Source: Streptomyces sp. NBC_00440 (lineage in GTDB: Bacteria > Actinomycetota > Actinomycetes > Streptomycetales > Streptomycetaceae). Taken from it: DNA of 64,000 bases. The stretch lies in the NCBI RefSeq assembly GCF_036014215.1, contig NZ_CP107921.1, positions 620,001 through 684,000 on the forward strand. Direction: 5' to 3'. Made by a program: the position numbers and the translations under genes. This document shows, piece by piece, positions 11,903 to 36,738 of this stretch (its first letter is position 1; every line of letters begins with the position of its first letter). Under the pieces are notes generated by a model. That model searched no databases, was not told the origin of the DNA, and saw only the letters and a list, made by a program, of their open reading frames with translations.

Positions 11903-11917
11903 GGGGTGCTCTCCTCC

Positions 11918-18899: not shown

Positions 18900-18922
18900 G
18901 GCCGGCCTCCTCGGGCGGGTCG

Positions 18923-19212
18923 GTCAGTTGATGACGAGCAGCGTTCCGGCGCAGCAGAACGCCATGATGAACACGGTGGCGAGAACAGCGAGGCCCGCCT
19001 CGGCGCAGCAGAGTGGGAAAGTACCCGCTGGAGCCCATCCCGAACAGCGCCATACCGATGGCGGCGCTCTGCACCTGGTCGGCCACGTCGAGGGCCCCCT
19101 GGGGAAGGATGTCCGTGGTCCGCAGTATGACGCAGCCTCAGAACGTCACCCCGCCCACCGCCGGGGCGAGATGGTGCATGTACGCAGCCACGGCCTGAGC
19201 GGCCGTGACCAT
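18923..19212 (-). pseudogene. Disrupted small membrane-protein gene between acyl-CoA dehydrogenase and pntA
   Basis: An ATG at 19212 overlaps the acyl-CoA dehydrogenase stop (TGATG) and follows a good AAGGAG, but the frame stops after 24 residues (TGA at 19138-19140). The same frame continues past the stop with a plausible coding stretch (ADQVQSAAIGMALFGMGSS), and after a one-base shift near 19015 reads CAEAGLAVLATVFIMAFC to a stop at 18923. Together these would give a small protein of about 95 residues with two hydrophobic segments. An internal stop plus a frameshift suggests decay or sequencing error. No family is recognised. Confidence 0.45.
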
Positions 19213-20372
19213 CAGCGGCACTCCTTGTCCGGGACGATTCCGACGATGCCGCCGAGACGGGCCCGGTGGCGGACGGGTGTGCCGAGCGCGACCTGGTCCG
19301 CGACGGCGCGCTTCAGCCGCAGATGTGCGGGGTGCTCCCAGGTCATGCCGATCCCGCCGTGGAGCTGAACGCACTCCTCGGCGGCACGGACCGCCACCTC
19401 GCTGCACACCGACGCGGCCACGGCCACCGCCACCGGCGCGTCGCCGGGGTCGTCGGCCAGCGCGGCCGCGGCGTAACGGGCCGCGGCGCGGGCGCTCTCA
19501 ACGGCGATGTGCAGATCCGCCATACGGTGCTTGATCGCCTGGAAGCCACCGACGACTCGCCCGAACTGGCGGCGTTCCGTCAGGTAGGAGACGGTCTCGG
19601 TGAGGCACCAGTGCGCGAGGCCGACCTGCTCCGAAGCGAGCAGCCCGGCGCCCGTGAGCAGACCGGCGCGTACGGCGTCCTCCGCGGCCCGCCCCCGCGC
19701 CACCGGGCGGGCGCGGGCACCGTCAAGCCTGAGGGTGGCCAGCGGACGGGTCATGTCGAGGGCTGTCACGGGGGTGGCCCGGACCTCTGCGCGGTCGACG
19801 AGCCAGAGCCCCGGACCGTCCGTGCCCAGCGCCGGGACGAGGAAGGTGCCGGCGTCCGCACCGGCCACCGGTGTGACGTCACCGTGCAGACCGTCCGGCT
19901 TCTCCCGGACGGTGTACGCCGGGCTGTCCGGGACCGCGGACCAGGGGACCGCGAGCGTGAGGACGAGTTCCCCGGATGCCGCTGCCACCAGCGTGTCGCG
20001 TACCGCGCTCCGGTCCGCGGACTGCTCGGGCATCAGCCGCACCAGGGTGCTCGTGGCGATGACGGCACTGGTGAGGAAGGGGACCGGGGCGACGGCCGAG
20101 CCGAGTTCCTCCAGCACGGTCCCGGTCTCGCGCGGACCTGCCCCGGCTCCCCCTGCCTCCTCCGGTACGAGGAGCCCGGCGAGTCCCAGGTCGGCGGCCA
20201 GGGTCCGCCACAGCGCGCCGTGCAGGCCTTGGGCGCCGTCGTAGACGGCCGCGACATCCTCGGACGCGCACCGGTCGGCGAGCAGTTTGCGCACGACGGT
20301 CCGTACCGACTCCTCGTCCTCGGACTCGACGAGCGAGAGCCGGACCGGGCCTGAGTAAACGGGGAGCGTCAT
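19212..20372 (-). CDS. Acyl-CoA dehydrogenase, second of a pair
   Basis: 386 residues; the ATG overlaps the preceding gene by four bases. It keeps VPEEAGGAGAG in the N-terminal helical domain and the C-terminal motifs RRQFGRVVGGFQAIKHRMADLHI and QLHGGIGMTWEHPAHLRLKRA, but the middle beta domain is less conserved than in its partner. Adjacent unequal acyl-CoA dehydrogenases commonly form alpha2beta2 enzymes acting on bulky CoA thioesters, as in actinobacterial steroid side-chain degradation (FadE28/FadE29). Heteromer formation here is inferred from adjacency, overlap and divergence. Confidence 0.87.
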   Translation of the reverse strand: MTLPVYSGPVRLSLVESEDEESVRTVVRKLLADRCASEDVAAVYDGAQGLHGALWRTLAADLGLAGLLVPEEAGGAGAGPRETGTVLEELGSAVAPVPFLTSAVIATSTLVRLMPEQSADRSAVRDTLVAAASGELVLTLAVPWSAVPDSPAYTVREKPDGLHGDVTPVAGADAGTFLVPALGTDGPGLWLVDRAEVRATPVTALDMTRPLATLRLDGARARPVARGRAAEDAVRAGLLTGAGLLASEQVGLAHWCLTETVSYLTERRQFGRVVGGFQAIKHRMADLHIAVESARAAARYAAAALADDPGDAPVAVAVAASVCSEVAVRAAEECVQLHGGIGMTWEHPAHLRLKRAVADQVALGTPVRHRARLGGIVGIVPDKECR

Positions 20373-21550
20373 CGGGGGACCTTCTTCCAGGGGACGTCCT
20401 TGTCCACCCGGGCCTCGCCCGGGAGGCCGAGCACACGTTCGGCGACGATGTTGCGGAGGACCTCGGACGTTCCGCCCTCGATCGAGTTGCCCTTCGCGCG
20501 CAGGTAGCGGTAGCCCGGTCCCCGGCTCAGGAAGTCGACGGAGGCCGGCCTGACGAGCGCCCAGTCGTCGTACTGGAGTGCGCCGTCGGGGTCGAGTTCG
20601 AGTTCGAGGAGGCTGATGCTCTGGGCCAGGTCGGCGAACATCACCTTCATGGCGGCGCCCTCGAATCCGGGCGCCCCCGTCGCGAGCCGCTGCCGGAGCC
20701 GGGCGCCCGTGAGCCGGAACACCTCGGCGGCGACCCAGCGCTCCATGACGCGGTCGTGCACGGCAGCACTGCGGACCCCGGGGTGCTCGCGCCACAGCTG
20801 CGCGACCTTGGAGATCATCCCCGACTCGCGGTCCGCCTGGTCGCCGCCGATGGCGACCCGTTCGCTGCTCAGTGTCGCGTTGGCGACCTTCCAGCCGTCA
20901 CCGACCTCACCGAGCCGGGCCGTGTCGGGGACGCGTACGTCGGTGAGGAAGACCTCGTTGAACTCGGCCTCCCCGGTGATCTGGCGGAGCGGCCGGACCT
21001 CGACGCCTGGGGCGGACATGTCGAGGACGAAGTACGAAAGACCGCGGTGCTTGGGCACGTCCGGATCGGTGCGGGCCAGCAGGATGGCGAAGCGTGCGAC
21101 GTGGGCGCTGGAGGTCCACACCTTCTGCCCGTTGACGACCCAGCCGCCCCCGTCGTCACGCACGGCACGTGTCGCCACAGCGGCGAGGTCGGACCCGGCA
21201 CCGGGCTCGGAGAACAGCTGGCACCAGACCTCATCGCCGAGCCAGAGCGGCCGCAGGTAGCGAAGCTGCTGCTCCGCGGTTCCGAACGCGAGGATCGTGG
21301 GCGCCGCCATACCGAGGCCGATTCCGATGTGGCCGGCCGGGTTCAAGGGGGCTCCGCCCGACCGGAGTTCGGTGTCGACGACGTCCTGGAGGTCGCGGGA
21401 GATGCCGAGTCCGCCGAGGCCCTCGGGGAAGTGCACCCAGGCGAGCCCGGCGTCGAACCGGGCGCGGTGGAAAACGGCCGGGTCGGTGGTGGCGGGCGGG
21501 TATGCGCGCAGCAGTTCGGTGACGCGTCCACGCATCGTGTTCTCGTTCAT
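20369..21550 (-). CDS. Acyl-CoA dehydrogenase, first of a pair
   Basis: 393 residues. It has the full set of FAD and substrate motifs: QLFSEPGAGSDLAAV, VVNGQKVWTSSAHVARF, FNEVFLTDVRVPD and GTSEVLRNIVAERVLGLPGE at the C-terminus. It dehydrogenates an acyl-CoA at the alpha-beta position, passing electrons to ETF. Its gene follows the kinase-fold gene by four bases and overlaps the second dehydrogenase gene by four. Its sequence type resembles FadE-like enzymes for branched or cyclic acyl-CoAs. The substrate is not known. Confidence 0.9.
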   Translation of the reverse strand: MNENTMRGRVTELLRAYPPATTDPAVFHRARFDAGLAWVHFPEGLGGLGISRDLQDVVDTELRSGGAPLNPAGHIGIGLGMAAPTILAFGTAEQQLRYLRPLWLGDEVWCQLFSEPGAGSDLAAVATRAVRDDGGGWVVNGQKVWTSSAHVARFAILLARTDPDVPKHRGLSYFVLDMSAPGVEVRPLRQITGEAEFNEVFLTDVRVPDTARLGEVGDGWKVANATLSSERVAIGGDQADRESGMISKVAQLWREHPGVRSAAVHDRVMERWVAAEVFRLTGARLRQRLATGAPGFEGAAMKVMFADLAQSISLLELELDPDGALQYDDWALVRPASVDFLSRGPGYRYLRAKGNSIEGGTSEVLRNIVAERVLGLPGEARVDKDVPWKKVPR

Positions 21551-21554
21551 GACC

Positions 21555-22583
21555 TCAGCTCCATTCCCTGAGGAGGGCGATGCCTTCGCCGAAGAGGGGC
21601 TCCACGAGGGTGCCGACCGTGTCGAATCCGGCCCCGACGGTCTGCTTCCGGGAGTGCCGGAGGTGAATGCCTTCGAGGATGACGGCGAGCTTGAACGCCG
21701 CCAGGCCCAGGTAGAACCCGAGACCCGCCGGGGGCAGCGGACCGCTGCGCGCGACGTACCACTCCACGAGCTGGGGCGCGGACGGGAAGCCGGGGGCGCG
21801 GGAGATCGTCGTGATGGCCTCGCCACCGGGGATCCCGGCGACCCGCCCGTAGACGACGAGAAGCGCGAGATCGGTGAGGGGGTCGCCGGTCGTCGCCATC
21901 TCCCAGTCGATGACGGCCCGCACCCCCAACTCGTCGACGAGCAGGTTGTCCAGCCGGAAGTCGCCGTGCACGATCCGGGCGGCCGACTCGGTGGGCACCC
22001 GGGCCGCGAGGGCCGTTCGCAGTTCCTCGGCCCCGGTCAGCTCGCGGGAGCGGGACGCTTCGAGCTGCCGGGTCCACCGGGACAGCTGCCGGCCGAGGAA
22101 GCCCTCGGGGCGGCCGAGGCCGCCGAGGCCGACGGCCTCCGGGTCGACCGCGTGGAGGCCGGCGAGCACGTCGATCATCTCGTGGGCGATCTCCCGGGTG
22201 CGGTCGGCGCCCAGCGCGCGCAGTTCCTTCTCGTCCCGGTAGGCGGTCCCCGGGACGTACTCCATGACGTAGAAGGGCGCGCCGATCAGTGCCGGGTCGC
22301 CGCACACAGCGAGGACCTGCGGCACGGGGACAGCTGTCGTGGCGAGCGCGCTCATGACGCGAGCCTCACGGCCCATGTCGTGGGCGGTTTCCAGGACATG
22401 ACCGAGCGGTGGCCGCCGGACGATCCACCGCCGGTGGCCGTTGCCGACGAGGTAGGTCATGTTCGACTTGCCGCCGGTGATGACCCGGCCGGTGCACTCA
22501 CCGAGCTGCGGGTCGACATGGGTACGGAGGAACGTGCCGACGACATCGAGGTCGAGGCCGGGCAGGTTGCGTTCGTCGGCCAT
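21555..22583 (-). CDS. Phosphotransferase (APH-fold) family protein linked to acyl-CoA dehydrogenases
   Basis: 342 residues. Kinase-fold motifs are VRRPPLGHVLETAHDMGREARVM (Lys/Glu region), the catalytic loop IVHGDFRLDNLLV and the metal-binding loop VIDWEMATTGDPLTDLALL. This group (FadE36/ACAD10 N-domain type) regularly accompanies acyl-CoA dehydrogenases; in ACAD10/11 it is fused to the dehydrogenase and phosphorylates 4-hydroxyacyl-CoAs so that the oxygen can be removed. A similar role for a hydroxyacyl-CoA intermediate is plausible here. The ATG shares a base with the stop of a 32-codon open frame upstream. Confidence 0.85.
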   Translation of the reverse strand: MADERNLPGLDLDVVGTFLRTHVDPQLGECTGRVITGGKSNMTYLVGNGHRRWIVRRPPLGHVLETAHDMGREARVMSALATTAVPVPQVLAVCGDPALIGAPFYVMEYVPGTAYRDEKELRALGADRTREIAHEMIDVLAGLHAVDPEAVGLGGLGRPEGFLGRQLSRWTRQLEASRSRELTGAEELRTALAARVPTESAARIVHGDFRLDNLLVDELGVRAVIDWEMATTGDPLTDLALLVVYGRVAGIPGGEAITTISRAPGFPSAPQLVEWYVARSGPLPPAGLGFYLGLAAFKLAVILEGIHLRHSRKQTVGAGFDTVGTLVEPLFGEGIALLREWS

Positions 22584-22682
22584 CACAGCACCGCAAGGAC
22601 GAGGAGGGCCCGGACGGCACGGACAGGGCGGACGGGGCGGTAGCCGCCCCCGGATGCGACGGTGATATCGAAAGTGCGCATG
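22583..22682 (-). other. Short coupled open frame, 32 codons (22583-22681)
   Basis: The ATG at 22681 follows GAGAG, and the TGA overlaps the start of the phosphotransferase gene. The product ends in a hydrophobic, Arg/Val/Pro-rich stretch (YRPVRPVRAVRALLVLAVL). The sequence is repetitive (GGACGG/GGGCGG-like units at 22611-22642). It may serve only for translational coupling. Evidence for a real protein is weak. Confidence 0.3.
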
Positions 22683-22686
22683 GCTC

Positions 22687-23442
22687 TCAGCCCTTCGGTC
22701 CGCCGGCGACATAGATGACCTGCCCGTTGACGAACCCCGCGTCCGCGCGGGCGAGGAAGGAGGCGACGGCGGCGATGTCGGCCGGTGTTCCCACCCGGCC
22801 GGCCGGGATCTCCTTGGCTCCGTGCTCGACCAGTTCGTCGAAGGAGACGCCCATCCGCTCGGCGGTCGCCCGGGTCATGTCCGTGGCGATGAACCCCGGC
22901 GCGATGGCGTTCGTCGTGATGCCGAACTTGCCCAGCTCGATGGCGAGCGTTTTCGTGAAGCCCTGGAGGCCCGCTTTGGCGGCCGCGTAGTTGGCCTGGC
23001 CACGGTTGCCGAGGGCGGACGTGCTCGACAGGTTGACGATCCGTCCGAAGCCCGCCTTGGTCATGTGCGCCTGGGCGGCACGGGACATGAGGAAGGAGCC
23101 GCGGAGATGGACGTCCATGACGGTCGACCACTCGGCGTTCGTCATCCGGAAGAGGAGGTTGTCGCGGAGCACGCCCGCGTTGTTGACGAGGACCGTCGGC
23201 GGGCCGAGCCGCTCGGCGACGAGCGCTGTCCCGCGCGCCGCGGAGTCCTCGTCGGAGACGTCGATCTGAACGGCCAGGGCATGGCCGCCGGCGGACTTGA
23301 TACGGGCGACGACCTCGGCGCAGGCCCGCTGGTCCAGGTCGGCGACGGCGACGGCGAATCCGTCCGTGGCCAGCCGCTCGGCAACCGCGGCGCCGATGCC
23401 GCGGGCGGCACCGGTGACGATGGCGACGCGTGGGGAGTTCAT
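22687..23442 (-). CDS. Short-chain dehydrogenase/reductase (FabG-like)
   Basis: 251 residues. Cofactor motif TGAARGIG at residues 10-17, NNAG, catalytic Ser in NLSSTSALG and YAAAK give a complete classical SDR. NADLDQR-like residues after beta-2 (VAVADLDQRA) favour NAD(H). The ATG overlaps the upstream HAD gene and is preceded by AAGGAG. In this operon it could act as a 3-hydroxyacyl-CoA dehydrogenase of the beta-oxidation cycle or as an alcohol dehydrogenase; the family does not distinguish them. Confidence 0.88.
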   Translation of the reverse strand: MNSPRVAIVTGAARGIGAAVAERLATDGFAVAVADLDQRACAEVVARIKSAGGHALAVQIDVSDEDSAARGTALVAERLGPPTVLVNNAGVLRDNLLFRMTNAEWSTVMDVHLRGSFLMSRAAQAHMTKAGFGRIVNLSSTSALGNRGQANYAAAKAGLQGFTKTLAIELGKFGITTNAIAPGFIATDMTRATAERMGVSFDELVEHGAKEIPAGRVGTPADIAAVASFLARADAGFVNGQVIYVAGGPKG

Positions 23443-24128
23443 GCTCGGGGCTCCTTGCTCGGGTGGGACGTGGTCGGTCCGACGGGTGCGCCGGACTCGA
23501 TGACGGACAGCAGCGCGTCCCGGGTGGTGGCGGCGTCGCGGTGGAGAAGGCCGTGCAAGCCGGCGCGGCGGGCGCCCTCGACGTTGGGCCTGGCGTCATC
23601 GACGAACGCGACCCGCTCGGGCGGCAGGCCGAGGCGCGTGCACAGCAGCCGGTAGATGTCCGCGGCGGGTTTACGCAGCCCGACCTGCCCGGAGATGACG
23701 ACCGGATCGAACCTTCCGTCGTAGAGCCGGTCCGGGTAGGTGTTCGCCCAGCTGTTGGAGAGGATGGCGACCCTGACACCGCGGGCCCGCAACTCGTCGG
23801 TCAGGTCCCACATCTCCTGGTCGGGGTGGAGCCCGGCGAACATGTCCGCGAGCATGCCCGCGGGCTCGGGGCGGCTTCCGTCGGTGCGCCGCAGCCGGGC
23901 CGCGAGCGCCTGCTCGAACCCCGCCGCGTCGAGCTTTCCGGTCTCCAACTCATGCACCGGGGAGTCCGGTTCGGCCTCCCGGCCGAGCCAGGCACGCAGG
24001 CAGTCGGTGAAGCTCTGCGGGTCGATACGGGAGGTGGCACGCCACAGCGCGAGCGAGTCGGCCACCGGAGTGGTGAGCACCCCGCCGTAGTCGAACGCGA
24101 CGGCCTCGACGGGACCTGCGCCGCCCAT
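23439..24128 (-). CDS. HAD-IA family hydrolase
   Basis: 229 residues from the ATG sharing a base with the upstream SDR stop. HAD motifs are all present: motif I AFDYGGVLTTP (nucleophilic Asp), motif II ILSNSW, motif III Lys in LRKPAADIY and motif IV VAFVDDARPNVEGA. The group resembles the HAD domain of ACAD10 and epoxide-hydrolase N-terminal phosphatases. Together with the APH-like protein and acyl-CoA dehydrogenases encoded nearby, all three ACAD10-type domains occur in this operon as separate proteins. Confidence 0.85.
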   Translation of the reverse strand: MGGAGPVEAVAFDYGGVLTTPVADSLALWRATSRIDPQSFTDCLRAWLGREAEPDSPVHELETGKLDAAGFEQALAARLRRTDGSRPEPAGMLADMFAGLHPDQEMWDLTDELRARGVRVAILSNSWANTYPDRLYDGRFDPVVISGQVGLRKPAADIYRLLCTRLGLPPERVAFVDDARPNVEGARRAGLHGLLHRDAATTRDALLSVIESGAPVGPTTSHPSKEPRA

Positions 24129-24886
24129 CACTCCCCCTCGCCGACGAAGAGGTGTCCGCCGTCGACCACGAGGGTCTGCCCCGTCGTCCACGCGGCGTCC
24201 CCGGAGAGGAGGAAGGCCACCGCGCCTGCGATGTCCCCGGGTTCGCCGAGACGCCCCATCGGGTACCCCTTGGCCACGGCCTCTTCGCGGCCCTCGTAGA
24301 GCGCGGTGGCGAACCGGGTCTTGACGACCGCGGGCGCAACGGCGTTCACCCTGATACCGGGCGCGAGTTCGACCGCCAGCTGGGACGTGATGAAGGAGAG
24401 CATCGCCTTGGTGGCCCCGTAGAAGCCGATTCCGGTGGACGGCCGGAGCCCGGCGACGGAGGAGACGTTGACCACGGCTCCCGGCCCGCGCCCGCCCATC
24501 CCGGCCTGGCGGGCCAGCCGGATCCAGTCCAGCGCCGCAAGGCAGTTGACCTCGAAGATCTTGCGGGCCGCCACCGGGTCGATGTCGATCAGCGGGCCGT
24601 ACACCGGGTTGATTCCGGTGTTGTTGACCAGCAGGTCGATGGAGCCGAATGCGGAGACGGCCGCGGCGACGGCCGCTTGCCGGCTCTCCGGCTGCTCGGC
24701 ACTCCCGGCCACGAACCGGACCTGGTCCGGCGTACCGAGCGCGTCGGCGGCTTCCTTCAGTGATGCTTCTTTGCGCGCGGTGATGACGACCCGCGCGCCG
24801 TCGGCGACGAGCCGCTCCGCGATGGCGTACCCGATGCCGCGGCTGGCACCGCTGACCAGGGCCACCTTGCCGTCGAATGGCTTCAT
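24128..24886 (-). CDS. Short-chain dehydrogenase/reductase
   Basis: 252 residues with GGAGGAGAG before the ATG. Motifs: SGASRGIG near residue 14, ARKEASL after beta-2 (basic residue favouring NADP(H)), NNTG, NVSSVAG and YGATKAM. It belongs to the glucose/3-oxoacyl reductase branch. It is the second gene after the thiolase, 43 bases downstream, within the operator-controlled unit. Its substrate is unknown. Confidence 0.87.
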   Translation of the reverse strand: MKPFDGKVALVSGASRGIGYAIAERLVADGARVVITARKEASLKEAADALGTPDQVRFVAGSAEQPESRQAAVAAAVSAFGSIDLLVNNTGINPVYGPLIDIDPVAARKIFEVNCLAALDWIRLARQAGMGGRGPGAVVNVSSVAGLRPSTGIGFYGATKAMLSFITSQLAVELAPGIRVNAVAPAVVKTRFATALYEGREEAVAKGYPMGRLGEPGDIAGAVAFLLSGDAAWTTGQTLVVDGGHLFVGEGE

Positions 24887-24929
24887 GACTCTCTCCTCCT
24901 CAGGGGATCCAGGTTTCCCGGAACAGCGT

Positions 24930-26147
24930 TCAGGCGAGGCGCTCGATGACCATGGCCATCCCCTGGCCGCCGCCGACGCACATGGACACGAGACCGGTCT
25001 GCTTGTCCTCGGTGCTCAGTGCGTTGAGGAGCGTGGTGGTGATGCGTGCCCCGGTCATGCCGAAGGGGTGGCCCAGGGCGATGGCCCCGCCCTTGACGTT
25101 GAGGCGGTCCTCGTCGATGCCCAGCTCCCGCGAGGACGCGATGACCTGGGCCGCGAACGCCTCGTTGATCTCGACGAGGTCGATGTCCGCCGCCGTCATG
25201 TGTGCGAGATGCAGGGCCTGTTGGACGGCCGTCACGGGACCGAGGCCCATGACTTCCGGGGACAGGCCTGTCACTCCTGTCGATACGATGCGGGCGAGCG
25301 GCCGGAGGCCGAGTTCCCGGGCCCGGATGTCACTCATGACGACGAGAGCGGCCGCGCCGTCGTTGAGGGGGCAGCAGTTGCCCGCGGTGATGGTGCCGTC
25401 GGGACGGAAGACCGGCCGCAGTGCGGACACCGCTTCGAAGGTCACACCCGGCCGGGGGCCGTCGTCGGCTGCGACGACGGTGCCGTCCGGCAGTGTCACC
25501 GGGGTGATCTCGCGGGCGAAGAACCCGTCGGCGATGGCCTTCTCGGCCCGGTTCTGACTGCGTACGGCGAACTCGTCCTGGTCGGCCCGGGTGACGCCCT
25601 TGAGCTGGGCGACGTTCTCGGCGGTCTGCCCCATGGACATGTAGGCGTCGGGCAGCAGCCCCGCCTCACGGGGGTCGGACCAGGTCAGACCGCCCTCGGC
25701 GAACCGCTGGGTCCGCTCCTGGGCCGGCGCGAACACGGGGTTGTACGTGCCCGGGAGGTTGTCGCTGTTGCCGTGCGCGTAACTGCTCACGCTCTCGACG
25801 CCCGCCGCGATGAACGCGTGGCCCTCGCCGGCCCGGATCGCGTGCATCGCCATCCGGATGGACTGGACGCTGGATGCGCAGTATCGCGTCACCGTGGTGC
25901 CGGGCAACTGGTCGAGCCCGGCCAGAACGGCGACGACGCGGCCCATGTTGTGACCGGAATCCCCGCCGGGCAGTCCGCAGCCGAGGATCAGGTCACCGAG
26001 TTCGGCCGGGTCGAGATCGGGTACGGCCCGGAGTGCCGCCCGCACGATGTGCACGGCGAGGTCGTCGGGCCGGATGTCCTTGAGCGAGCCCTTGACCGCC
26101 CGCCCGATCGGCGAGCGGGCTGCGGAGACGATGACCGCCTCTGGCAT
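24930..26147 (-). CDS. Thiolase (acetyl-CoA acyltransferase)
   Basis: 405 residues. The nucleophilic Cys90 (TRYCASSVQSI), the His of GGAIALGHPFGMTGAR and the second Cys of MCVGGGQGMAMV give a complete catalytic set; length and motifs fit degradative type I thiolases. It cleaves a 3-oxoacyl-CoA to acetyl-CoA or propionyl-CoA plus the shortened acyl-CoA. First gene of a minus-strand unit whose promoter region carries a perfect palindrome 21 bases from the start codon. The ribosome site is GGAAGGAAA. Confidence 0.93.
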   Translation of the reverse strand: MPEAVIVSAARSPIGRAVKGSLKDIRPDDLAVHIVRAALRAVPDLDPAELGDLILGCGLPGGDSGHNMGRVVAVLAGLDQLPGTTVTRYCASSVQSIRMAMHAIRAGEGHAFIAAGVESVSSYAHGNSDNLPGTYNPVFAPAQERTQRFAEGGLTWSDPREAGLLPDAYMSMGQTAENVAQLKGVTRADQDEFAVRSQNRAEKAIADGFFAREITPVTLPDGTVVAADDGPRPGVTFEAVSALRPVFRPDGTITAGNCCPLNDGAAALVVMSDIRARELGLRPLARIVSTGVTGLSPEVMGLGPVTAVQQALHLAHMTAADIDLVEINEAFAAQVIASSRELGIDEDRLNVKGGAIALGHPFGMTGARITTTLLNALSTEDKQTGLVSMCVGGGQGMAMVIERLA

Positions 26148-26167
26148 GACATTTCCTTCCGGAATAA

Positions 26168-26185
26168 ATTAATGTCTACATTAAT
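26168..26185. promoter_or_regulatory. 18-bp operator palindrome, site A (thiolase promoter)
   Basis: ATTAATGTCTACATTAAT has perfect 8-base arms around CT. It lies in an AT-rich island very unlike the surrounding DNA, 21 bases upstream of the thiolase start. It aligns base for base with sites B (28437) and C (35885), consensus RTTNNTGTCKACANNAAY. The TGTC-GACA core fits FadR/FCD-type GntR operators, and such a regulator is encoded at 35959. Confidence 0.8.
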
Positions 26186-26278
26186 AACTACTGAGTCACA
26201 AGCGTGCGGGGCGCTCAAGCGGACCGCCCCGGACCGCGAGGTGGAAAAGACCGTATGGACGTGGGTGGGCCGCTGAGC

Positions 26279-26321
26279 CCGGCCCCCGGAGAGCATCGGG
26301 TGGACGGTCTCCGGGGGCCGG
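26279..26321. terminator. Hairpin after the MDR-type reductase gene
   Basis: CCGGCCCCCGGAGA (26279-26292) and TCTCCGGGGGCCGG (26308-26321) form a perfect 14-bp stem with a 15-base loop, just past the stop at 26350 on the minus strand. It separates the amidohydrolase-reductase unit from the thiolase promoter. Confidence 0.85.
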
Positions 26322-26349
26322 ACCTCTGCGCCGGTCGAGCCGCGCCAGG

Positions 26350-28454: not shown

Positions 28455-28473
28455 TTCTAGGAAGGTCTGACCC

Positions 28474-29912: not shown

Positions 29913-30322
29913 ACGTCGAACGCCACGTCGAGCTGGCCTCGAACATCGAACGCTCACTGACCCGACTCGGCCCGGACGACCACGAGATCGCCATCGAGGC
30001 CGCGATGCTCGCCGGCACCCACTGGCTCAACGCCGCCCTGCACGCGGACGGCGTCACAGCCGAGGACGAGGACGTCATCCACTGCTCGATGCTCGTCGTC
30101 AACATGGTCCGCAAGTACGCGGCCGCCGAGCCCGCCCTCGTCCGCGCCCTTCAGGAGATCGAGGATCTGCGTCCCCTGCACGTGCGCGGGGACGTCCCCG
30201 GCGGATCCGCCGCCGGACGCCGCGCGCTGGAACTGCTCACCGCCATGCGGCTGCGCGCCGCCGGCTCCGTCGAAGCCAGGGGCTCCGCCCACTCCGCCGA
30301 CTCACTCCAGGAGGCCCGGTGA
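29909..30322 (+). CDS. Unknown 137-residue helical protein of the catabolic island
   Basis: The ATG at 29909 overlaps the previous stop, and the last codons overlap the GTG of the CoA ligase gene. The sequence is almost all-alpha: NVERHVELASNIERSLTRLG, IAIEAAMLAGTHWLNAALHADGV, VIHCSMLVVNMVRKYAAAEPALVRALQEIEDLRP and a C-terminal helix. The pattern (HWLNAALH, followed by an acidic EDEDVIH) resembles HEPN-like or small metal-binding helical bundles, but I cannot assign it. Likely a partner of the 150-residue protein encoded before it. Confidence 0.75.
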   Translation: MNVERHVELASNIERSLTRLGPDDHEIAIEAAMLAGTHWLNAALHADGVTAEDEDVIHCSMLVVNMVRKYAAAEPALVRALQEIEDLRPLHVRGDVPGGSAAGRRALELLTAMRLRAAGSVEARGSAHSADSLQEAR

Positions 30323-31953
30323 ACGGCCTGATGATGCATCAGCAGCTCCTCGTCTCTACTCTCCTCACCCACGCCGAGCGCCATCACGCGAACACCGAGG
30401 TCGTCTCGGCACGGTGCGAGGGTGACATCCACCGGTACACCTTCCGCGACATGGCCCACCGCAGCCGACAGGTGGCCCAGGCCGTCGGGGCGATGGGCGT
30501 CGGGCCCGGCGACCGCGTCGCCACCCTCGCCTGGAACACCTACCGGCATGTGGAGCTGTATTACGGCGTCTCCGGTTCCGGTTCGGTTCTGCACACGCTC
30601 AATCCGCGCCTGCACCCGGACCAGCTCGTCTGGATCATCAACAACGCCGGCGACTCGGTCCTCTTCTTCGACCTCACCTTCGTCGACCTGGTCCGGGAGA
30701 TCGCTCCGCGCGTGCCCGGCGTCCGGAAGTTCGTCCTGCTGAGCGACGCCGGGCAGCTTGCGGCCGCACAGCCCGCCGGCGACGACCTGGAGGTCACGGC
30801 GTACGAGGACCTCCTGGCGGCACAGGACGGCGACTACACCTGGCCCGACTTCGACGAGAAGCAAGCGGCCTCCCTGTGCTACACGAGCGGCACCACCGGA
30901 CACCCCAAGGGGGCGCTGTACTCGCACCGTTCGACCGTGCTGCACTCGTACGGTGTCGCCCTGCCCGACTCGATGGGGCTCTCGGCCCGCGACGTGGTCA
31001 TGCCCGTCGTGCCGATGTTCCACGTGAACGCGTGGGGCATCCCGTATGCCGCGTGCCTCACCGGGGCGAAACTCGTGCTGCCCGGCAAGGATTTGAGCGG
31101 CCCGGCCCTCACGGCGCTCCAGGAGGCCGAGGGCGTCACGATCTCCGGGAGCGTTCCCACCGTCTGGCAGGGGCAGCTGGACCACGCACGCGCCACCGGC
31201 ATCACGCTCAGGACCCTCCAGCGGGCCGTCATCGGAGGCGCCGCCTGCCCCGCCTGGATGGCCCGTGAGCTGCGGGACGTCCACGGGGTCCGGGTCATCC
31301 ACGGCTGGGGCATGACGGAGACGAGCCCCTTGGGCTCCGCGTCGGTCCTCAAGCTCAGCCACCAGGCTCTCGACCGCGAGGCGCAGGAGGCGGTGCTCGC
31401 CAAGCAGGGCCGCTCCCTGTTCGGCATCGACATGAAGATCACGGACGATGAGGGCGCCGAGCTGCCGTGGGACGGCCGCACGCCGGGCCACCTCATGGTG
31501 CGGGGCCACTGGGTCACCAGCGGGTACTACCCCCCGGGCCGTCCGAGCCCCCTCGTCAACGGCTGGTTCCCGACCGGCGACATCGCGACGATGGACCCCG
31601 AAGGGTTCATGCAGATCACGGACCGGAGCAAGGACCTCATCAAGTCCGGTGGCGAGTGGATCAGTTCGATCGAGATCGAGAACCTCGCTATGGACCACCC
31701 CGAGATCGACACGGCTGCCTGCATCGGCGTCAGGCATGCGAAGTGGGATGAGCGCCCCATCCTCGTGGCCGTCCGGCGACCGGGCTCCACCCTCACGGCG
31801 AAGGAGCTCCTCGGGTCATTCGCCGGGAAGATCGCCAAATGGTGCGTCCCCGACGACGTGGTGTTCGTGGACACCCTGCCCATGGGGGCAACGGGCAAGA
31901 TCCTCAAGGCGCCCTTGCGGGAGCAGTACCGCGAACACCTCACTCACAGCTGA
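30319..31953 (+). CDS. Acyl-CoA synthetase (AMP-forming, fadD-like)
   Basis: 544 residues from GTG at 30319. Adenylation motifs: P-loop LCYTSGTTGHPKGALYSHRS from about residue 186, IHGWGMTETSPLG, the A8 hinge WFPTGDIATMDPEGFMQITDRSKDLIKSGGEWIS and the C-terminal catalytic Lys in MGATGKILKAPL. It belongs to the medium-chain/AlkK-like branch and activates a carboxylic acid to its CoA thioester for the dehydrogenases and thiolase of this island. It ends the operon, 180 bases before a strong hairpin. Confidence 0.93.
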   Translation: MNGLMMHQQLLVSTLLTHAERHHANTEVVSARCEGDIHRYTFRDMAHRSRQVAQAVGAMGVGPGDRVATLAWNTYRHVELYYGVSGSGSVLHTLNPRLHPDQLVWIINNAGDSVLFFDLTFVDLVREIAPRVPGVRKFVLLSDAGQLAAAQPAGDDLEVTAYEDLLAAQDGDYTWPDFDEKQAASLCYTSGTTGHPKGALYSHRSTVLHSYGVALPDSMGLSARDVVMPVVPMFHVNAWGIPYAACLTGAKLVLPGKDLSGPALTALQEAEGVTISGSVPTVWQGQLDHARATGITLRTLQRAVIGGAACPAWMARELRDVHGVRVIHGWGMTETSPLGSASVLKLSHQALDREAQEAVLAKQGRSLFGIDMKITDDEGAELPWDGRTPGHLMVRGHWVTSGYYPPGRPSPLVNGWFPTGDIATMDPEGFMQITDRSKDLIKSGGEWISSIEIENLAMDHPEIDTAACIGVRHAKWDERPILVAVRRPGSTLTAKELLGSFAGKIAKWCVPDDVVFVDTLPMGATGKILKAPLREQYREHLTHS

Positions 31954-32038
31954 CCGGGGGCGTCTCCCCCACCGGAGCCGCCGTCGGGCGGTCCGTTGCA
32001 CCACGCAACGGGCCGTTCGCCGACGGCTTCGTCGTTCC

Positions 32039-32083
32039 AGGGCCGTACGCAGGGCCGTACGCAGGGCCATACTCAGGGCCGGG
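32039..32083. repeat. 12-bp tandem repeat (AGGGCCGTACGC)
   Basis: Two perfect copies at 32039-32050 and 32051-32062, a diverged copy at 32063-32074 and a partial fourth lie in the gap after the CoA ligase. They are not coding. They may have expanded by slippage. Confidence 0.75.
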
Positions 32084-32133
32084 CGCCGGGCACATCAGGA
32101 CGACCCGGGCAGTCCGGCCGCTCCGGCAGCAAA

Positions 32134-32195
32134 AGGGCCCCGCCCCGGCCTTCGCCACCCAGGGGTCCTGGTGGCGTCGGCCGGGGCGGGGCTCT
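32134..32195. terminator. Long hairpin between convergent units
   Basis: Arms AGGGCCCCGCCCCGGCC (32134-32150) and GGCCGGGGCGGGGCTCT (32179-32195) pair along 17 bases with one weak pair. An inner CGCCACC/GGTGGCG pair with CAGG/CCTG extends the structure. It lies between the convergent CoA-ligase and substrate-binding-protein units, fitting a bidirectional terminator. Confidence 0.88.
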
Positions 32196-32233
32196 GAACG
32201 GTCAGCGAAGATGCGGGGTTCGCCCGCCGGCCC

Positions 32234-33211
32234 TCACTGTCCGCAGCTGTTGTCGATCACGTCGAATGGCACAGCGTCCGGCTTCCCGGTGGAAAACTTC
32301 ACGTTCGTCTTCCAGGCGGCGGCGTCGGTCGAGGTGATGTACGACTGATGAACCTTGTCCCAGAGTCGGCCGGCCGCATCCGCCCTGAGTCCCAGCAGCT
32401 TCGACAACGACTTCACACCGGCGGCCTTGTTCGCGTCGTCGTTGATCCACTTCACCGCGGAGTCCATCGCCCTGCAGAACTTGCCGACGGTACCGGGGTG
32501 CTTGGCCTTGTAGCCCTTCGTGGTGGCCCAGAGGACCTGAAGGCCATTGCGGCTGAGGTCACCGGCCCCGCCTGCGAGGGCGTCCGAGAACGGCACGAGG
32601 TCGAGCCCGTGCGAAGCCAGTGTGAAGTACGTCGACGAGGAGCCGACGACGGCATCGACCGTTTTGTTGCGCAGAGCGGGCTCCTGCGTCACGGCCCCGC
32701 CCACGGCCACGAAGGTGACGGAACCGGGGTCCACACCGTTCGCCTTCAGTACCTCCTGCGCGTACTTCTCCACGGCGGACCCGCGTGAGACGACGCCGAC
32801 CCGCTTCCCGGCCAGCTGTTTCACGTTGGTGATGTGACCGGACTTCGGGGCGAGCAGCACCATGTCCAGCCGGCCGTAGGGCGGCAGCAGGGTGACCGGC
32901 TGCTTCTGCTGGATGGCCGGGATGATGTTGTCCGGGCTCACCGCCGCGATCTGGGTCGAGCCGCCGATGAGCTGCGCGGCGAGCTCGGGGCCCGACTTCG
33001 CCGCCAGGGGTTTGACATCCAGCCCCTCCTTCTTGAAGAAGCCCTGCTCAATGGCGATGGTCGAGGGCCAGGCGATGGAGTTGTGCAGATAGTTGCCGAG
33101 GACGATCTTCGAACCGTCGCCCTGGTCACCGGAGTTGCCCTGGCCGCAGCCGGTCAGCAGGACGAGTGCGAAACCGAGCCCGACGGCAGCCGGCTTGCTG
33201 GCCTTGTACAC
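32234..33211 (-). CDS. ABC substrate-binding lipoprotein (NitT/TauT type)
   Basis: 325 residues from a GTG with AGAGGAGG upstream. The signal segment ends in the lipobox LLTGC (Cys22), so the protein is membrane-anchored on the outside. The SsuA/ThiY-like domain shows IVLGNYLHNSIAWPSTIAIEQGFFKKEGLDV, then PELAAQLIGGSTQIAAVSPDNIIPAI and GKRVGVVSRGSAVEKYAQEVL. Relatives bind sulfonates, taurine, nitrate or thiamine precursors, or aromatic acids. Last gene of the TauD-permease-ATPase unit. The ligand is probably the compound degraded by the island. Confidence 0.88.
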   Translation of the reverse strand: MYKASKPAAVGLGFALVLLTGCGQGNSGDQGDGSKIVLGNYLHNSIAWPSTIAIEQGFFKKEGLDVKPLAAKSGPELAAQLIGGSTQIAAVSPDNIIPAIQQKQPVTLLPPYGRLDMVLLAPKSGHITNVKQLAGKRVGVVSRGSAVEKYAQEVLKANGVDPGSVTFVAVGGAVTQEPALRNKTVDAVVGSSSTYFTLASHGLDLVPFSDALAGGAGDLSRNGLQVLWATTKGYKAKHPGTVGKFCRAMDSAVKWINDDANKAAGVKSLSKLLGLRADAAGRLWDKVHQSYITSTDAAAWKTNVKFSTGKPDAVPFDVIDNSCGQ

Positions 33212-33296
33212 CCTGGGCCTCCTCTACTGTTCGATGTGGCAGGGGCCGGGGGGAAAAGCGGACGGACGGTGAACCGGCCGGGTACGCCGCAGGCGT

Positions 33297-34133
33297 TCAC
33301 CGGCGCAGATGGGCACGGAGCCGCTCAAGGATGTCCTGATAGGCCGAGTCCATCGTGATGTGTGTCAGATCCCGCGGCCGCTCGATGTCGATCATGACGT
33401 CGTCGAGGACTCCGCCCTCCCCCATGAGCACGACACGGTCGGCCAGCGCGACGGCCTCACCGAGATCGTGCGTGACGAACATGACCGTGCGGTGTTCCTC
33501 CCGCTGCCACAGATCGAGGAACTCGTTCTGGGCGGACCGCCTCGTGTTGACGTCAAGAGCGGCGAACGGCTCGTCCATGAGGAGCAGTTCAGGGTCGAGG
33601 GCCCAGGTCCGGGCCAGTGCGACCCGCTGGCGCATCCCCTGGGAGAGCTGCCAGGGGTAGTGCTTCTCGTGGTCAGCGAGGTGGACGGTCGAGAGCCAGC
33701 GGGAAGCGGTCTCCTTCCGTTCGGCGGTGGGCTTGACCCCGCGCAGCTCCAGGCCGTACTGCACGTTGCCCGACGCGGTGCGCCAAGGAAGCAGGGCATC
33801 GCGGGCGAGCATGAAACCCATCCGTTTGCGGGCGGCCCGGGGTGCGGACCCGAGGACGGTCACCGCGCCGTCGGCCGCCTCGACGAGACCTGCCGCCATG
33901 TTGAGCATGGTCGTCTTGCCGCAGCCGCTCCGGCCGACGACCGCCACGAACTGCCCGGCGGGTATCGACAGGTTGAGCTCTTCGAGGATCGTGCGGACTC
34001 CGCCGTCGGCAGAGGGAAAGGTGACGGTCACGTTCTCGAACGTCACGGCGTCGGCCGGGTGCGCGCCACCCTGAAGCGCCGACGCGCCGTTCATGGCGGG
34101 ATCCGTCTCGGACCTATGGGATCGGGCTGGCAT
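33297..34133 (-). CDS. ABC transporter ATP-binding protein (SsuB/TauB type)
   Basis: About 278 residues from the ATG at 34133, two bases after the permease stop; an ATG at 34094 (MNGASA) is an alternative start. Walker A GRSGCGKTTML, the Q-loop LARDALLPWRT, signature LSQGMRQRVALARTWA and Walker B LLLMDEPFAALD, then H-loop FVTHDLGEAVALADRV, are intact. The LSQGM signature is normal for this subfamily. It powers the importer with the permease encoded upstream. Confidence 0.9.
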   Translation of the reverse strand: MPARSHRSETDPAMNGASALQGGAHPADAVTFENVTVTFPSADGGVRTILEELNLSIPAGQFVAVVGRSGCGKTTMLNMAAGLVEAADGAVTVLGSAPRAARKRMGFMLARDALLPWRTASGNVQYGLELRGVKPTAERKETASRWLSTVHLADHEKHYPWQLSQGMRQRVALARTWALDPELLLMDEPFAALDVNTRRSAQNEFLDLWQREEHRTVMFVTHDLGEAVALADRVVLMGEGGVLDDVMIDIERPRDLTHITMDSAYQDILERLRAHLRR

Positions 34134-34135
34134 GT

Positions 34136-34990
34136 TCACCGCTCTTCCGGGGGCTGCCACCTGAGCAGCCGTGCCTCGATGGCGCCCATGAATTGGTTGA
34201 GAATGACGGCGATCACGGCCAGCAGGATGAGAATCGCGTACACCGCATCCATCCGGAAGATGGCGGAGTAGTTCGCGATCAGCTGGCCGAGACCGTTCTC
34301 GGCGGAGATCAGCTCGGAGCCCACTACACCCAGCAGTGAGTAGACGAGGCCGAGGCGCAGGGACGCGAAGATGGCGGGCGTCGCGACGGGGAAGAAGATC
34401 TTCGTGAACAGCTGGACCTTGTTCACTCCGAGGACGGCCGACAGCCGGAGCCACTCCGCGTCGGCGGACCGTATCCCCGCGCGCGCCCCCGACATGACGA
34501 TGAAGAAGACGAGCGTCGATGCGAGGGCGACCTTGGCCCACAGCCCGATGCCGAACGCCACGATGAACAGCGGCGCCAGCGCGATGCGCGGCATGGAGTT
34601 CATGGCGTCCAGGAACGGCGTGAGAATCCGCTCGGTGGAGGGCAGGAGGCCCAGCGCGAGCCCCGCGACGACGCCCGCGACCCCCGCCATGACCCAGGCC
34701 AGCAGCACCGCCGTCATCGTCGCCCGGGTGTTGGACCACAGCTCCCCCGACTCCCCGGCAGTGACGAGGTAATGCCACGACTGCTCAGGGGACTTGGAGA
34801 GGACGGGGTCCAGGATGCCCGCGCTGGTGGTCCATTGCCACAGGCCGAACCAGGCGATCAGCAGGAAGACCTGCCATGCGCGCACCTTGATCCGTCCGCG
34901 CTTGCGGCGAGCGGACGGGGGACGGCCTTGCCCTTCGGCGGCTCCGGCCGCCCCCACGGGAACGGGTGACTTGGTGTTGCTGGAGGTCAT
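34136..34990 (-). CDS. ABC transporter permease (SsuC/TauC type)
   Basis: 284 residues from the ATG at 34990 (GGAGAGG site). A basic, Ser/Arg-rich cytosolic N-terminus of about 40 residues precedes six or so membrane helices and the binding-protein-dependent EAA loop (RLSAVLGVNKVQLFTKIFFPVATPAIFASLRLGL). The C-terminus has AIEARLLRWQP. With the ATPase and lipoprotein it forms a complete importer. Fifty bases after the dioxygenase gene, so co-transcribed. Confidence 0.9.
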   Translation of the reverse strand: MTSSNTKSPVPVGAAGAAEGQGRPPSARRKRGRIKVRAWQVFLLIAWFGLWQWTTSAGILDPVLSKSPEQSWHYLVTAGESGELWSNTRATMTAVLLAWVMAGVAGVVAGLALGLLPSTERILTPFLDAMNSMPRIALAPLFIVAFGIGLWAKVALASTLVFFIVMSGARAGIRSADAEWLRLSAVLGVNKVQLFTKIFFPVATPAIFASLRLGLVYSLLGVVGSELISAENGLGQLIANYSAIFRMDAVYAILILLAVIAVILNQFMGAIEARLLRWQPPEER

Positions 34991-35039
34991 GGCCTCTCCG
35001 TCTCGGGAATGCATCAAGAGGTTCAAGATGCCCGGTCGC

Positions 35040-35834
35040 TCAGGCCGGGGCCTCGCCGTGGAGCGTGATCCGGTTGAGGGCCCGCGGCTGGTCGCCGTAG
35101 TCGTGGACGGCGTAGTGCATCGTGCAGCGGTTGTCCCACATCACGAGGTCACCGGGCTGCCAGCCGTGCCGGTACACGTTGTCCGGGGTGACGGACCGGG
35201 TGTAGAGGAACTCCATGAGCGGGTCGCTCTCCTCCCTGGTCCAGCCTTCGATGCAGCTGTTCTCCAGGTGGCCGACATAGAGGGCCTTGCGCCCGGTCTC
35301 CGGGTGCGTACGGACGAGGGGGTGCACCGCCTGCGGCCGCTCCGCCTCGGGGATGCCCATCATCCGGCCGAGCCGGATGCCGCGGAAGCGCACCCGCAGG
35401 GTCTCCAGCACACGCCGCAGATCCGGTGAGAGCCTTTCGAAAGCGAGGTACTGGTTCGACCACAGGGTGTCGCCGCCCACCGGGATGGTGACGGCCGAGA
35501 GCATCGAGATCTTGGGCGGGACCGCCTCGAAAGCGGCGTCGTAGTGCCATGCCTCGGTGGCGGTGGTCTCCTTCTTGACGTCGGTGATCTGGACGACGCC
35601 CGGAGCGTCCGCGAGCTGGTTGAGCATGGCCGTGACGACCGGGTCGCCCCAGTGGCGTGCGAACCTGGCGTGCGCCGGCGGTTCGAGGTGCTGCCCCCGG
35701 AAGAGGAGCATGCAGTGCTCCAGGAACGCTTCCCGGAGTGTGGCGAGTGTCGCCGTGTCGAGGTCCTCCCCCAGGCGGACCCCTTCGACCGACGCACCGA
35801 TCGACCCGGTGAGTGGTGTGATCTTCAGGGCCAT
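35040..35834 (-). CDS. TauD/TfdA-family 2-oxoglutarate-dependent dioxygenase
   Basis: 264 residues from the ATG at 35834 (GGAGG site). Iron ligands His97 and Asp99 are in EAWHYDAAF, the distal His240 in NRCTMHYAVHDY, and Arg255 in RALNRITLHG should bind 2-oxoglutarate. Members hydroxylate the carbon next to sulfonate, ether oxygen or similar groups, releasing sulfite, phenol or another leaving group. Co-transcription with a NitT/TauT-type importer suggests it acts on the imported compound. Its promoter region contains operator C. Confidence 0.92.
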   Translation of the reverse strand: MALKITPLTGSIGASVEGVRLGEDLDTATLATLREAFLEHCMLLFRGQHLEPPAHARFARHWGDPVVTAMLNQLADAPGVVQITDVKKETTATEAWHYDAAFEAVPPKISMLSAVTIPVGGDTLWSNQYLAFERLSPDLRRVLETLRVRFRGIRLGRMMGIPEAERPQAVHPLVRTHPETGRKALYVGHLENSCIEGWTREESDPLMEFLYTRSVTPDNVYRHGWQPGDLVMWDNRCTMHYAVHDYGDQPRALNRITLHGEAPA

Positions 35835-35884
35835 GATGTTCCTCCGCGATCCGTGCCGACAGGGATGGCTCAATCCTTTTTCAG

Positions 35885-35902
35885 ATTGATGTCGACAAGA
35901 AT
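35885..35902. promoter_or_regulatory. 18-bp operator, site C (TauD promoter)
   Basis: ATTGATGTCGACAAGAAT keeps the TGTC-GACA core and the outer ATT/AAT of sites A and B; the arms pair in 7 of 9 positions. It lies in an AT-rich patch 51 bases upstream of the dioxygenase gene and just downstream of the GntR gene, consistent with control by that regulator. Confidence 0.75.
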
Positions 35903-35958
35903 AAAGAAGGGGTGACCACTGTCAACCCCACGGACGAAACCCGTTCAGTCAGATACGT

Positions 35959-36738
35959 TCAGTCAGATACGCGGGTGTCCTCAAGGGCCACCAGGGCCGC
36001 GTCGCGGATTCGCTCGATGCGATCCACGGCGATCCGGACCACCGGGGCGGCCTTGCCCGCCGCCACCGCGGCCCGAAGGGTGTGCCAGCTCTCCAGGGAC
36101 CGCGGGATGCTCCCGGGGTCGCGCGCCAGTCCCAGACGCACATATCGGAGCGTCTGGAGGGAGACGGACTGCAACAGGTCCGCGAGGGTCTGGTTGCTCG
36201 CTGCCGCCGCGATCGACGAGTTCAGCAAGAACGTCGCCGTCGCATAGTCGTCGGCGGACTGGTCGTCGACGGACTGGGAGACCGACCTCTCGACCGCGGA
36301 CATGTGGGAGTCCAGGACGGCGAGCAGCCTCTTCGGTTCCTTCATCTCCTCCCGGAGGAGCATGACGTACAGCGCGATCCGCACGTCGAAGACGTTGCGC
36401 ACCTCCCTGGCCGTCGGCGCGGTGACGAGCGCGCCCCTCCGTGCCTGGAACTCGACGAGCCGGTCCCGCTCAAGGATGCGCAGCGCTTCACGGACCGGCG
36501 CCCGGCTGACACCGAGGATCTCGCAGATGTCCTGTTCGAGCAGGCGCTGACCGCCGTGGATCAGGTCGAAGGTGATGACACAGGCCAACCGGGCAGCGAT
36601 CTGCTCCGCCAGAGAGACCGCCACCTGCATACTGGAGCGATGCCTGAGCAACGACTGCTCCACAGCCGTCATCCGCTGGTCACGAGGCAGGAGCAGCCCG
36701 GACAGGTCAGGCAGGTCCTCCGTCCGTTTGCGTGCCAA
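35959..36738 (-). CDS. GntR-family transcriptional regulator (FCD subgroup)
   Basis: 259 residues if the TTG at 36738 is the start; an in-frame ATG at 36672 (MTAVEQ) is possible. The winged helix covers about residues 45-110, with the recognition region EQDICEILGVSRAPVREALRILERDRLVEF and wing GALVTAPTA. An all-helical FCD-like effector domain follows with FDVRIALYVMLLREEM. Acyl-CoA or organic-acid ligands are common in this group. It is the first gene upstream of the dioxygenase unit and the best candidate to bind operators A, B and C. Confidence 0.9.
   Translation of the reverse strand: MARKRTEDLPDLSGLLLPRDQRMTAVEQSLLRHRSSMQVAVSLAEQIAARLACVITFDLIHGGQRLLEQDICEILGVSRAPVREALRILERDRLVEFQARRGALVTAPTAREVRNVFDVRIALYVMLLREEMKEPKRLLAVLDSHMSAVERSVSQSVDDQSADDYATATFLLNSSIAAAASNQTLADLLQSVSLQTLRYVRLGLARDPGSIPRSLESWHTLRAAVAAGKAAPVVRIAVDRIERIRDAALVALEDTRVSD

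Follow-up and report, generated by a model that had tools for sequence, protein, structure and literature searches.

The genome of Streptomyces sp. NBC_00440 encodes, within a 64,000-nucleotide stretch that is called the window hereafter (620-684 kb of the 8.68-Mb genome), a cluster of 18 genes that is probably a catabolic regulon for an imported organic acid, controlled by a regulator of the GntR-FCD type, and for which a stepwise route can be proposed. The genes, identified by gene calling based on codon-position composition and by Pfam and NCBIfam scans of the window proteins, lie at 19212-36663, each as a single open frame; they encode two acyl-CoA dehydrogenases (ACADs), an APH-fold kinase, two SDRs, a HAD hydrolase, a thiolase, two MDR reductases (CurA and QOR), an Amidohydro_2 protein (Amh2), two proteins of no family (unk1 and unk2), an AMP-binding CoA ligase, the NMT1-type binding protein, ATPase and permease of an importer, a TauD dioxygenase and the GntR-FCD regulator. 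The preliminary description of this DNA had given this gene list with the same domains, and its proposal of a co-regulated catabolic regulon (import, 2-oxoglutarate-dependent oxygenation, CoA activation and beta-oxidation) stands as the best reading, in view of a shared operator site and a recurring core of genes.

Regarding the layout, the minus strand carries, from right to left, the genes for GntR-FCD, TauD, permease, ATPase and NMT1-type binding protein, and the plus strand a block made of QOR, unk1, unk2 and the CoA ligase. Amh2 and CurA diverge from this block on the minus strand, and the thiolase operon starts ∼200 bp beyond CurA, in the order thiolase, SDR2, HAD, SDR1, kinase, ACAD large and ACAD small; PntA and PntB follow ∼310 bp past the last one. 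Three transcription units had been proposed; the operator sites instead point to four operons under three sites, with GntR as a gene on its own.

These sites are copies of a near-palindrome, wTTAATGTCGACATTAAw, found three times in the window: 5' of the TauD-transporter operon, between Amh2 and QOR, and 5' of the thiolase operon. A search for shared palindromes detected TTATTGTCGACAGTAA between Amh2 and QOR in the window and in the related loci L004, L005 and L006, and TGTCGACA or TGTCTACA, with AT-rich flanks, stands 5' of TauD and of thiolase; two more TGTCNACA places in the window have no such flanks. A matrix built from 38 AT-flanked TGTCGACA sites of 13 Rhodococcus and Burkholderiales loci, with no Streptomyces site among them, returned exactly these three sites in the window (scores in Table 1), the next best place reaching 6.6, while 20 second-order Markov shuffles reached at most 17.5 and 15.4; the test is strong, though not fully independent. 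Across the genome, TTNNTGTCKACANNAA is found exactly at four places on at least one strand, namely the three window sites and 1,184,726, and allowing at most one mismatch gives 10 strand-hits, compared to 3 for the reversed control. A counterpart of operator 1 scoring above 20 is present in L004 and in L003 (Streptomyces sp. NBC_01306, which has the same stretch with 97-100% protein identity), and none was found in L005 or L006.

As for the protein acting on this operator, the product of the GntR-FCD gene is its presumed owner. With a site score of at least 20 and a GntR identity of at least 40%, 19 of 36 loci have both, 12 have neither, 5 have the site alone, and none has GntR alone; for 65 of the 75 sites, a probed gene follows at no more than 350 bp. 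Training sites came from 13 of these loci; the other 23 divide into 9 with both (4 being the Streptomyces sisters), 12 with neither and 2 with the site only. The loci with the site alone are L014, on a truncated contig, and four from Rhodococcus, two of which (L021 and L024) belong to genomes that have GntR elsewhere (L019, and L034 and L082, respectively), and all nine loci with an AraC probe match and no GntR are without the site. A strict operator pattern run on 14 related genomes gave zero matches in G067 and G078, whose loci L013 and L027 have looser sites, and 0 in the controls; a Hydrogenophaga site (G069:C49), with no cluster gene beside it, was taken as chance. The promoters examined gave no GntR site of the form TnGTnnnACnA. 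A shared operator ahead of the operons is what is expected of a GntR-FCD regulon, and because one type of near-palindrome precedes them, its units appear to belong together; judged on sequence, the regulon is very likely real.

The fourth genomic site, at 1,184,726, is placed behind a GntR gene whose product is 78% identical to that of the cluster (1,183,989-1,190,700; L081:5990-12696), and the genes ahead of which it stands encode a CoA transferase of the CaiB type, an ACAD, a LysR-type regulator, a CMD protein and an MFS transporter; the nearest model for the CaiB-type gene is succinate-glutarate CoA-transferase, below its cut-off.

Relatives at E ≤ 0.001 number 139 for unk1 and 168 for unk2. 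When named genomes were scanned with the alignment of unk1, 35 loci emerged, 4 from Streptomyces and the rest from Rhodococcus, Burkholderiales and proteobacterial metagenome-assembled genomes; with L038 and L053, these make the 37 loci of the tblastn tally (at least 60 bits), of which 23 measure at least 18 kb and many are truncated. A QOR-type MDR reductase (of three kinds) occurs in 27 of them, TauD of either type in 22, a CoA ligase of any identity in 20, GntR in 19, Amh2 in 16 and CurA in 14, followed by thiolase and NitT components (7 each), HAD (5) and kinase (4); two rows, the thiolase of L006 (39%) and the ATPase of L053 (36%), are not the cluster's own genes. From these counts, therefore, the core is taken to be CurA-Amh2, QOR-unk1-unk2-ligase, TauD and GntR, while the half with ACAD, kinase, SDR, HAD and thiolase is mainly actinobacterial. 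The core genes recur round unk1/unk2 in Rhodococcus and Burkholderiales, with Amh2 72-81% identical in Rhodococcus and Burkholderiales-type loci; in Cupriavidus L036, unk1, unk2, QOR, TauD, PntAB, SDR, ACAD and kinase (35%) are all on one strand. Because the core recurs in these groups and the promoters have one rare site in common, the arrangement seems more than chance. In Hydrogenophaga sp. 2FB (L016:3327-6856), a protein with a Rieske domain and a long TauD protein are encoded upstream of QOR-unk1-unk2-ligase.

Within the genus, counting the window's own genome, unk1 was detected in 2 of 392 Streptomyces genomes (E ≤ 1e-20), Amh2 in 1 of 150 (E ≤ 1e-60) and TauD in 1 of 150 (E ≤ 1e-70), so hardly any other Streptomyces has any of the three core genes tested. 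The preliminary description had raised the possibility that the units occur apart in relatives; at the level of sequence, they appear instead to be linked by a common site, by joint presence in two phyla and by the rarity of the core genes in Streptomyces. The ACAD-kinase-SDR-HAD part is accessory: the kinase is absent from one of the four Streptomyces relatives.

The size of the set had been put at about 20 genes, and PntAB had been left out. This transhydrogenase probably belongs to the regulon: PntA adjoins the cluster in six further genomes of two phyla, including one that hardly differs from the window. It lies just outside the loci in the L003 and L004 genomes, within L024, L025 and L036, and as a contig-edge fragment in L037; for L005, a PntA fragment (77% identical) interrupted by a stop is found ∼0.9 kb outside the locus. 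The full PntA genes of the L005 and L006 genomes are on other contigs, with none seen near L006, and the matrix scan gave no operator site directly ahead of the window pntA. A gene for an Erythromycin-esterase-family protein (PF05139; 14425-15777) stands beside the PntAB genes.

Regarding the chemistry, a CoA ligase of more than 50% identity and the beta-keto-acid cleavage enzyme (BKACE, PF05853) are each found in 17 of the 37 loci by tblastn, with both in 1 (L013) and neither in 4; this recount was used in place of a count on called open reading frames (ligase 16, BKACE 13, overlap 0). BKACE converts a free beta-keto acid and acetyl-CoA into an acyl-CoA and acetoacetate, and a ligase with a thiolase reaches a similar end. 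Because the two nearly exclude each other and share this outcome, a beta-keto acid intermediate is suggested. BKACE thus occurs without the ligase in 16 of the loci round the same unk1/unk2 pair, whereas the window uses ligase and thiolase, a thiolase of this kind having been detected solely in Streptomyces and Rhodococcus loci. A BKACE-family enzyme has been described in phosphonate synthesis (PMC12871164), which gave no help here.

The two proteins of no family, unk1 and unk2, count as paralogues forming small families without annotation, based on the comparison of their profiles (hhalign E 1.2e-8). Among the fold matches of the AlphaFold2 (AF2) model of unk2, HEPN chains lead, and both proteins possibly have a HEPN-like helical fold. 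The RX4-6H pair, the conserved motif of HEPN ribonucleases, does not occur in those columns of unk2 that are invariant or almost so; R78 and H85 of unk1 have RX6H spacing, in a low-confidence, non-helical stretch of the model. Searched against the sequences of solved structures, the unk1 and unk2 profiles gave matches only at E 0.29 or worse. Amh2 is devoid both of HxH, which we take to be the usual metal motif of canonical Amidohydro_2 enzymes (IDFRLRPP replaces it, as in 3irs), and of the late metal Asp.

The kinase likely starts near the internal Met44 (∼22583; 22586 for the gene caller), which removes its overlap with the SDR gene; its relatives in L004 and L005 have 344 amino acids. Its PDB matches are 9o56 (1.2e-52), 3dxp (1.7e-48) and ACAD11 (8v3v, 7.6e-45), the last being the nearest among named enzymes of the LvaA/ACAD11 kind in the PDB, and it contains HGDFRLDN and VIDWEMATTGDP, presumably kinase motifs. 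In the Streptomyces loci L004 and L005, one more ACAD gene separates ACAD large from the kinase; that of L005 matches ACAD11 at E 4e-133 and keeps LADGPDEVH where the 8v3v entry, presumably a mutant of the catalytic Asp, reads LANGP. In the NBC_00440 genome, the nearest ACAD11-like copy is 66% identical, at 1.374 Mb; it was in this genome that the ACAD was sought. The second kinase copy of this genome adjoins an ACAD11/LvaC-like gene outside the window, the pair being located at 1,373,129-1,375,360 (L085:7130-9355), and since the kinase has relatives in most Streptomyces sampled, an ACAD10/11-type pair may be general in the genus.

ACAD10 and ACAD11 phosphorylate 4-hydroxyacyl-CoAs en route to beta-oxidation (PMC12440821; PMC11342911), and the lva operon follows such a phosphorylation route for levulinate (PMC6692424). 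Because the kinase is of the ACAD11/LvaA kind and the sister loci have an ACAD11/LvaC-like dehydrogenase, a 4-hydroxyacyl-CoA step is suggested; the window kinase resembles enzymes of this chemistry, and a CoA-dependent route with a 4-hydroxyacyl stage is somewhat favoured. The preliminary description gave no named pathway with this exact set; the kinase part, for its share, resembles named chemistry. Like LvaABCDE of Pseudomonas putida, the cluster has a CoA ligase, an SDR, an APH-type kinase and small family-less proteins nearby, a likeness of gene context; the LvaC/ACAD11-type ACAD is found in L004 and L005 and not in the window, and the cluster adds TauD, the ABC importer, two MDR reductases, Amh2, thiolase, a two-subunit ACAD and PntAB. 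ACAD10 has a HAD domain, and in the cluster a HAD gene lies one gene away from the kinase; in contrast with ACAD10/ACAD11, the functions are on separate genes and the ACAD part is missing in the window.

In the proposed mechanism, GntR would keep the three operator regions shut when no inducer is present. The NMT1-type ABC transporter would import the substrate, which the TauD enzyme would oxidise with O2 and 2-oxoglutarate; QOR and CurA would saturate enone bonds at the expense of NADPH, the supply of which PntAB would maintain, and Amh2 with the unk1/unk2 pair would perform a hydrolytic or ligand-handling step leading to a keto or hydroxy acid, to be activated by the CoA ligase. At the 4-hydroxyacyl-CoA stage, the kinase would phosphorylate the intermediate, and its dehydration would fall to an enzyme of the ACAD11/LvaC type, for which this strain may use the copy in its core genome; finally, the two-subunit ACAD, the SDRs and the thiolase would complete beta-oxidation. 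In many Burkholderiales, BKACE would replace ligase and thiolase.

In TauD, the columns of H99, D101, H255, R266 and R270 of the E. coli enzyme are invariant. The protein has the HxD...H and Arg signature of the TauD/TfdA family (H99, D101, H255 and R266), residues that we take to be the iron ligands and the 2-oxoglutarate Arg. An organosulfonate used as carbon source, from which TauD would set sulfite free, an aldehyde or keto acid being the remaining product, is possible yet doubtful. It agrees with the SsuA/TauC-like importer (below cut-offs), adjoining the dioxygenase as in E. coli tauABCD, and with YeiH-type transporter genes, found with an L013 probe in or beside the clusters of 8 genomes, an association that favours sulfite release. 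Their identity is 70-78% in L016, L027 and L030 and 28-36% in L021, L025, L037/L083 and L004/L086; the gene is downstream of the ligase in L013, L016, L027 and L030; in Streptomyces LHD-70 (L086) it separates ACAD small from PntA, and in Cupriavidus lacunae (L025) it is preceded by an operator site 138 bp upstream. Salmonella YeiH is required for sulfite resistance (PMC12880088). Also in favour, the second TauD type of Burkholderiales keeps His at the TauD position-70 column in 5 of 5 aligned sequences. Against this substrate, the window cluster has no YeiH, the sole match in its genome being 7 Mb away, and many Burkholderiales loci use Bug/TctC binding proteins. These proteins are carboxylate binders. 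Moreover, the window TauD, 34% identical to that of E. coli, has Thr at the column of His70, presumably the sulfonate-binding residue. Compared to tauABCD, the cluster differs further in being embedded in CoA metabolism, with a GntR gene beside it. Cleavage of an ether-type, aryloxy or enol-ether carboxylic acid in the manner of RdpA or TfdA is rather unlikely: RdpA, the phenoxypropionate dioxygenase, is the second-best solved structure for TauD, and the four TauD genes of L008 recall enantiomer-specific pairs, but the enzyme is about equally similar to the taurine, alkyl-sulfate and PlaO1 enzymes, so that similarity does not discriminate, and the general family scans gave no ring-cleavage family among the window proteins.

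A lactone or butenolide, saturated by CurA/QOR and opened by Amh2 to a 4-hydroxy acid for the kinase/ACAD11 route, is unlikely. The kinase and the ACAD11-like genes of the sisters suggest a 4-hydroxy acid, and Amidohydro_2 includes lactonases; Amh2, without HxH and the late metal Asp, may instead not be a classical lactonase, and the kinase is in reach in just 3 of the 16 loci keeping Amh2. Finally, it is highly improbable that a TauD-transporter unit stands by chance beside a separate beta-oxidation cluster. Kinase relatives occur in most Streptomyces sampled, and in Rhodococcus wratislaviensis a locus ∼350 kb from the Amh2/QOR cluster of L024 unites GntR with the importer and a pair of TauD genes and contains the site twice; these separated units nonetheless have the site in common, and a second cluster of that genome (L034) unites all units, while the three core genes tested, each nearly absent elsewhere in the genus sample, are together in a second phylum.

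Several points weigh against the GntR-controlled regulon and its route as proposed. The core of the site was initially noticed in the window and the sister loci of Streptomyces and then used to select the training sites, so that the matrix is not wholly independent; GntR binding to the operator is inferred, and the four Rhodococcus loci with the site alone have no GntR gene in the locus. The 37 loci are not independent (several per genus, even per genome), and many stop at ∼10 kb or where the contig does. The kinase is accessory, being within ∼10 kb in three of the four Streptomyces relatives and in Cupriavidus L036; of 150 Streptomyces genomes, 139 contain a relative of it (E ≤ 1e-80). The ACAD11/LvaC-type dehydrogenase is absent from the window cluster, where 4 bp separate ACAD large from the kinase, which may depend on the distant ACAD11-like copy or be a relic. 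No enoyl-CoA hydratase was found among the window proteins in the general family scans, and the order of the enzymatic steps is not fixed.

The features are collected in Table 1. Among the best 25 NCBIfam matches, with limits of 1e-10 and 0.01, those of the ligase, thiolase, SDR2 (broad subfamily) and HAD (broad HAD-IA level only) passed the cut-offs; both ACADs, kinase, SDR1, both MDR reductases, binding protein, ATPase, permease, TauD and GntR remained below them, and for Amh2, unk1 and unk2 no match was obtained in the window set at these limits. A three-subunit molybdopterin hydroxylase set (MoCoBD, FAD-binding and 2Fe-2S) is encoded at 9764-13419.

Table 1. Genes and putative operator sites of the cluster in the window (pLDDT, predicted local distance difference test)
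Feature	Position	Strand	Basis
GntR-FCD regulator	35959-36663	-	Pfam GntR and FCD
Operator 3 (GATTGATGTCGACAAGAATA), 5' of TauD-transporter operon	35884-35903	.	Matrix score 31.8; same place in L003-L006
TauD-family Fe/2-oxoglutarate dioxygenase	35040-35834	-	Pfam TauD, 1.9e-57
NitT/TauT-type ABC permease	34136-34885	-	BPD_transp_1; TauC/SsuC-like, below cut-offs
NitT/TauT-type ABC ATPase	33297-34094	-	ABC_tran; SsuB/TauB-like, below cut-offs
NMT1/SsuA-like substrate-binding protein	32234-33211	-	PF09084, 5.9e-22
Acyl-CoA ligase	30319-31953	+	PRK07008 family, 845.6 vs cut-off 822
unk2	29909-30322	+	No Pfam/NCBIfam family; AF2 pLDDT 93.8
unk1, paralogue of unk2 with inserted beta strands	29460-29912	+	No family; AF2 pLDDT 85.7
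QOR, MDR reductase of quinone-oxidoreductase type	28474-29463	+	Family scans
Operator 2 (TGTTATTGTCGACAGTAACT), divergent promoter Amh2/QOR	28436-28455	.	Matrix score 25.4; kept in L003-L006
Amh2, Amidohydro_2 protein	27372-28301	-	Pfam; IDFRLRPP at HxH position
CurA, MDR reductase of CurA/prostaglandin-reductase type	26350-27324	-	Family scans, below cut-offs
Operator 1 (AATTAATGTCTACATTAATA), 5' of thiolase operon	26167-26186	.	Matrix score 33.6
Thiolase, acetyl-CoA acyltransferase	24930-26147	-	Family scans
SDR2	24128-24886	-	Family scans
HAD-IA hydrolase	23439-24131	-	TIGR02247-like, 76.7, below cut-off 125.4
SDR1, FabG-like	22687-23442	-	Below cut-offs
APH-fold kinase, ACAD11/LvaA kind	21555-22583	-	PDB matches; start at internal Met44
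ACAD large subunit, PimC-like	20369-21550	-	Below cut-off
ACAD small subunit, IpdE2/PimD-like	19212-20372	-	Below cut-offs
PntA and PntB transhydrogenase, probable end of thiolase operon	15919-18899	-	Pfam

In conclusion, the literature searched, which mostly left subscription papers outside, gave no account of this cluster. A joint reading is put forward tentatively: a pathway common to Actinomycetota and Burkholderiales, in which TauD-family enzymes would free a carboxylic acid of a sulfonate or ether group, a heteromer of unk1 and unk2, possibly of HEPN fold, would serve the keto-acid stage as an enzyme or carrier of a new type, and a beta-keto acid would pass to BKACE or to ligase and thiolase, most versions being controlled by one GntR with an operator found in two phyla. 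No single element is shown to go beyond known kinds; it is the combination of known enzyme kinds with two unannotated families that is new. The operator would make a defined regulon of an unnamed string of genes and may serve to find the members of that regulon in any genome; the chemistry of ACAD10/ACAD11, a recent description from mammals, would be tied to a bacterial multi-gene setting with a HAD gene, and two small unannotated protein families would stand at the heart of a pathway in two phyla.

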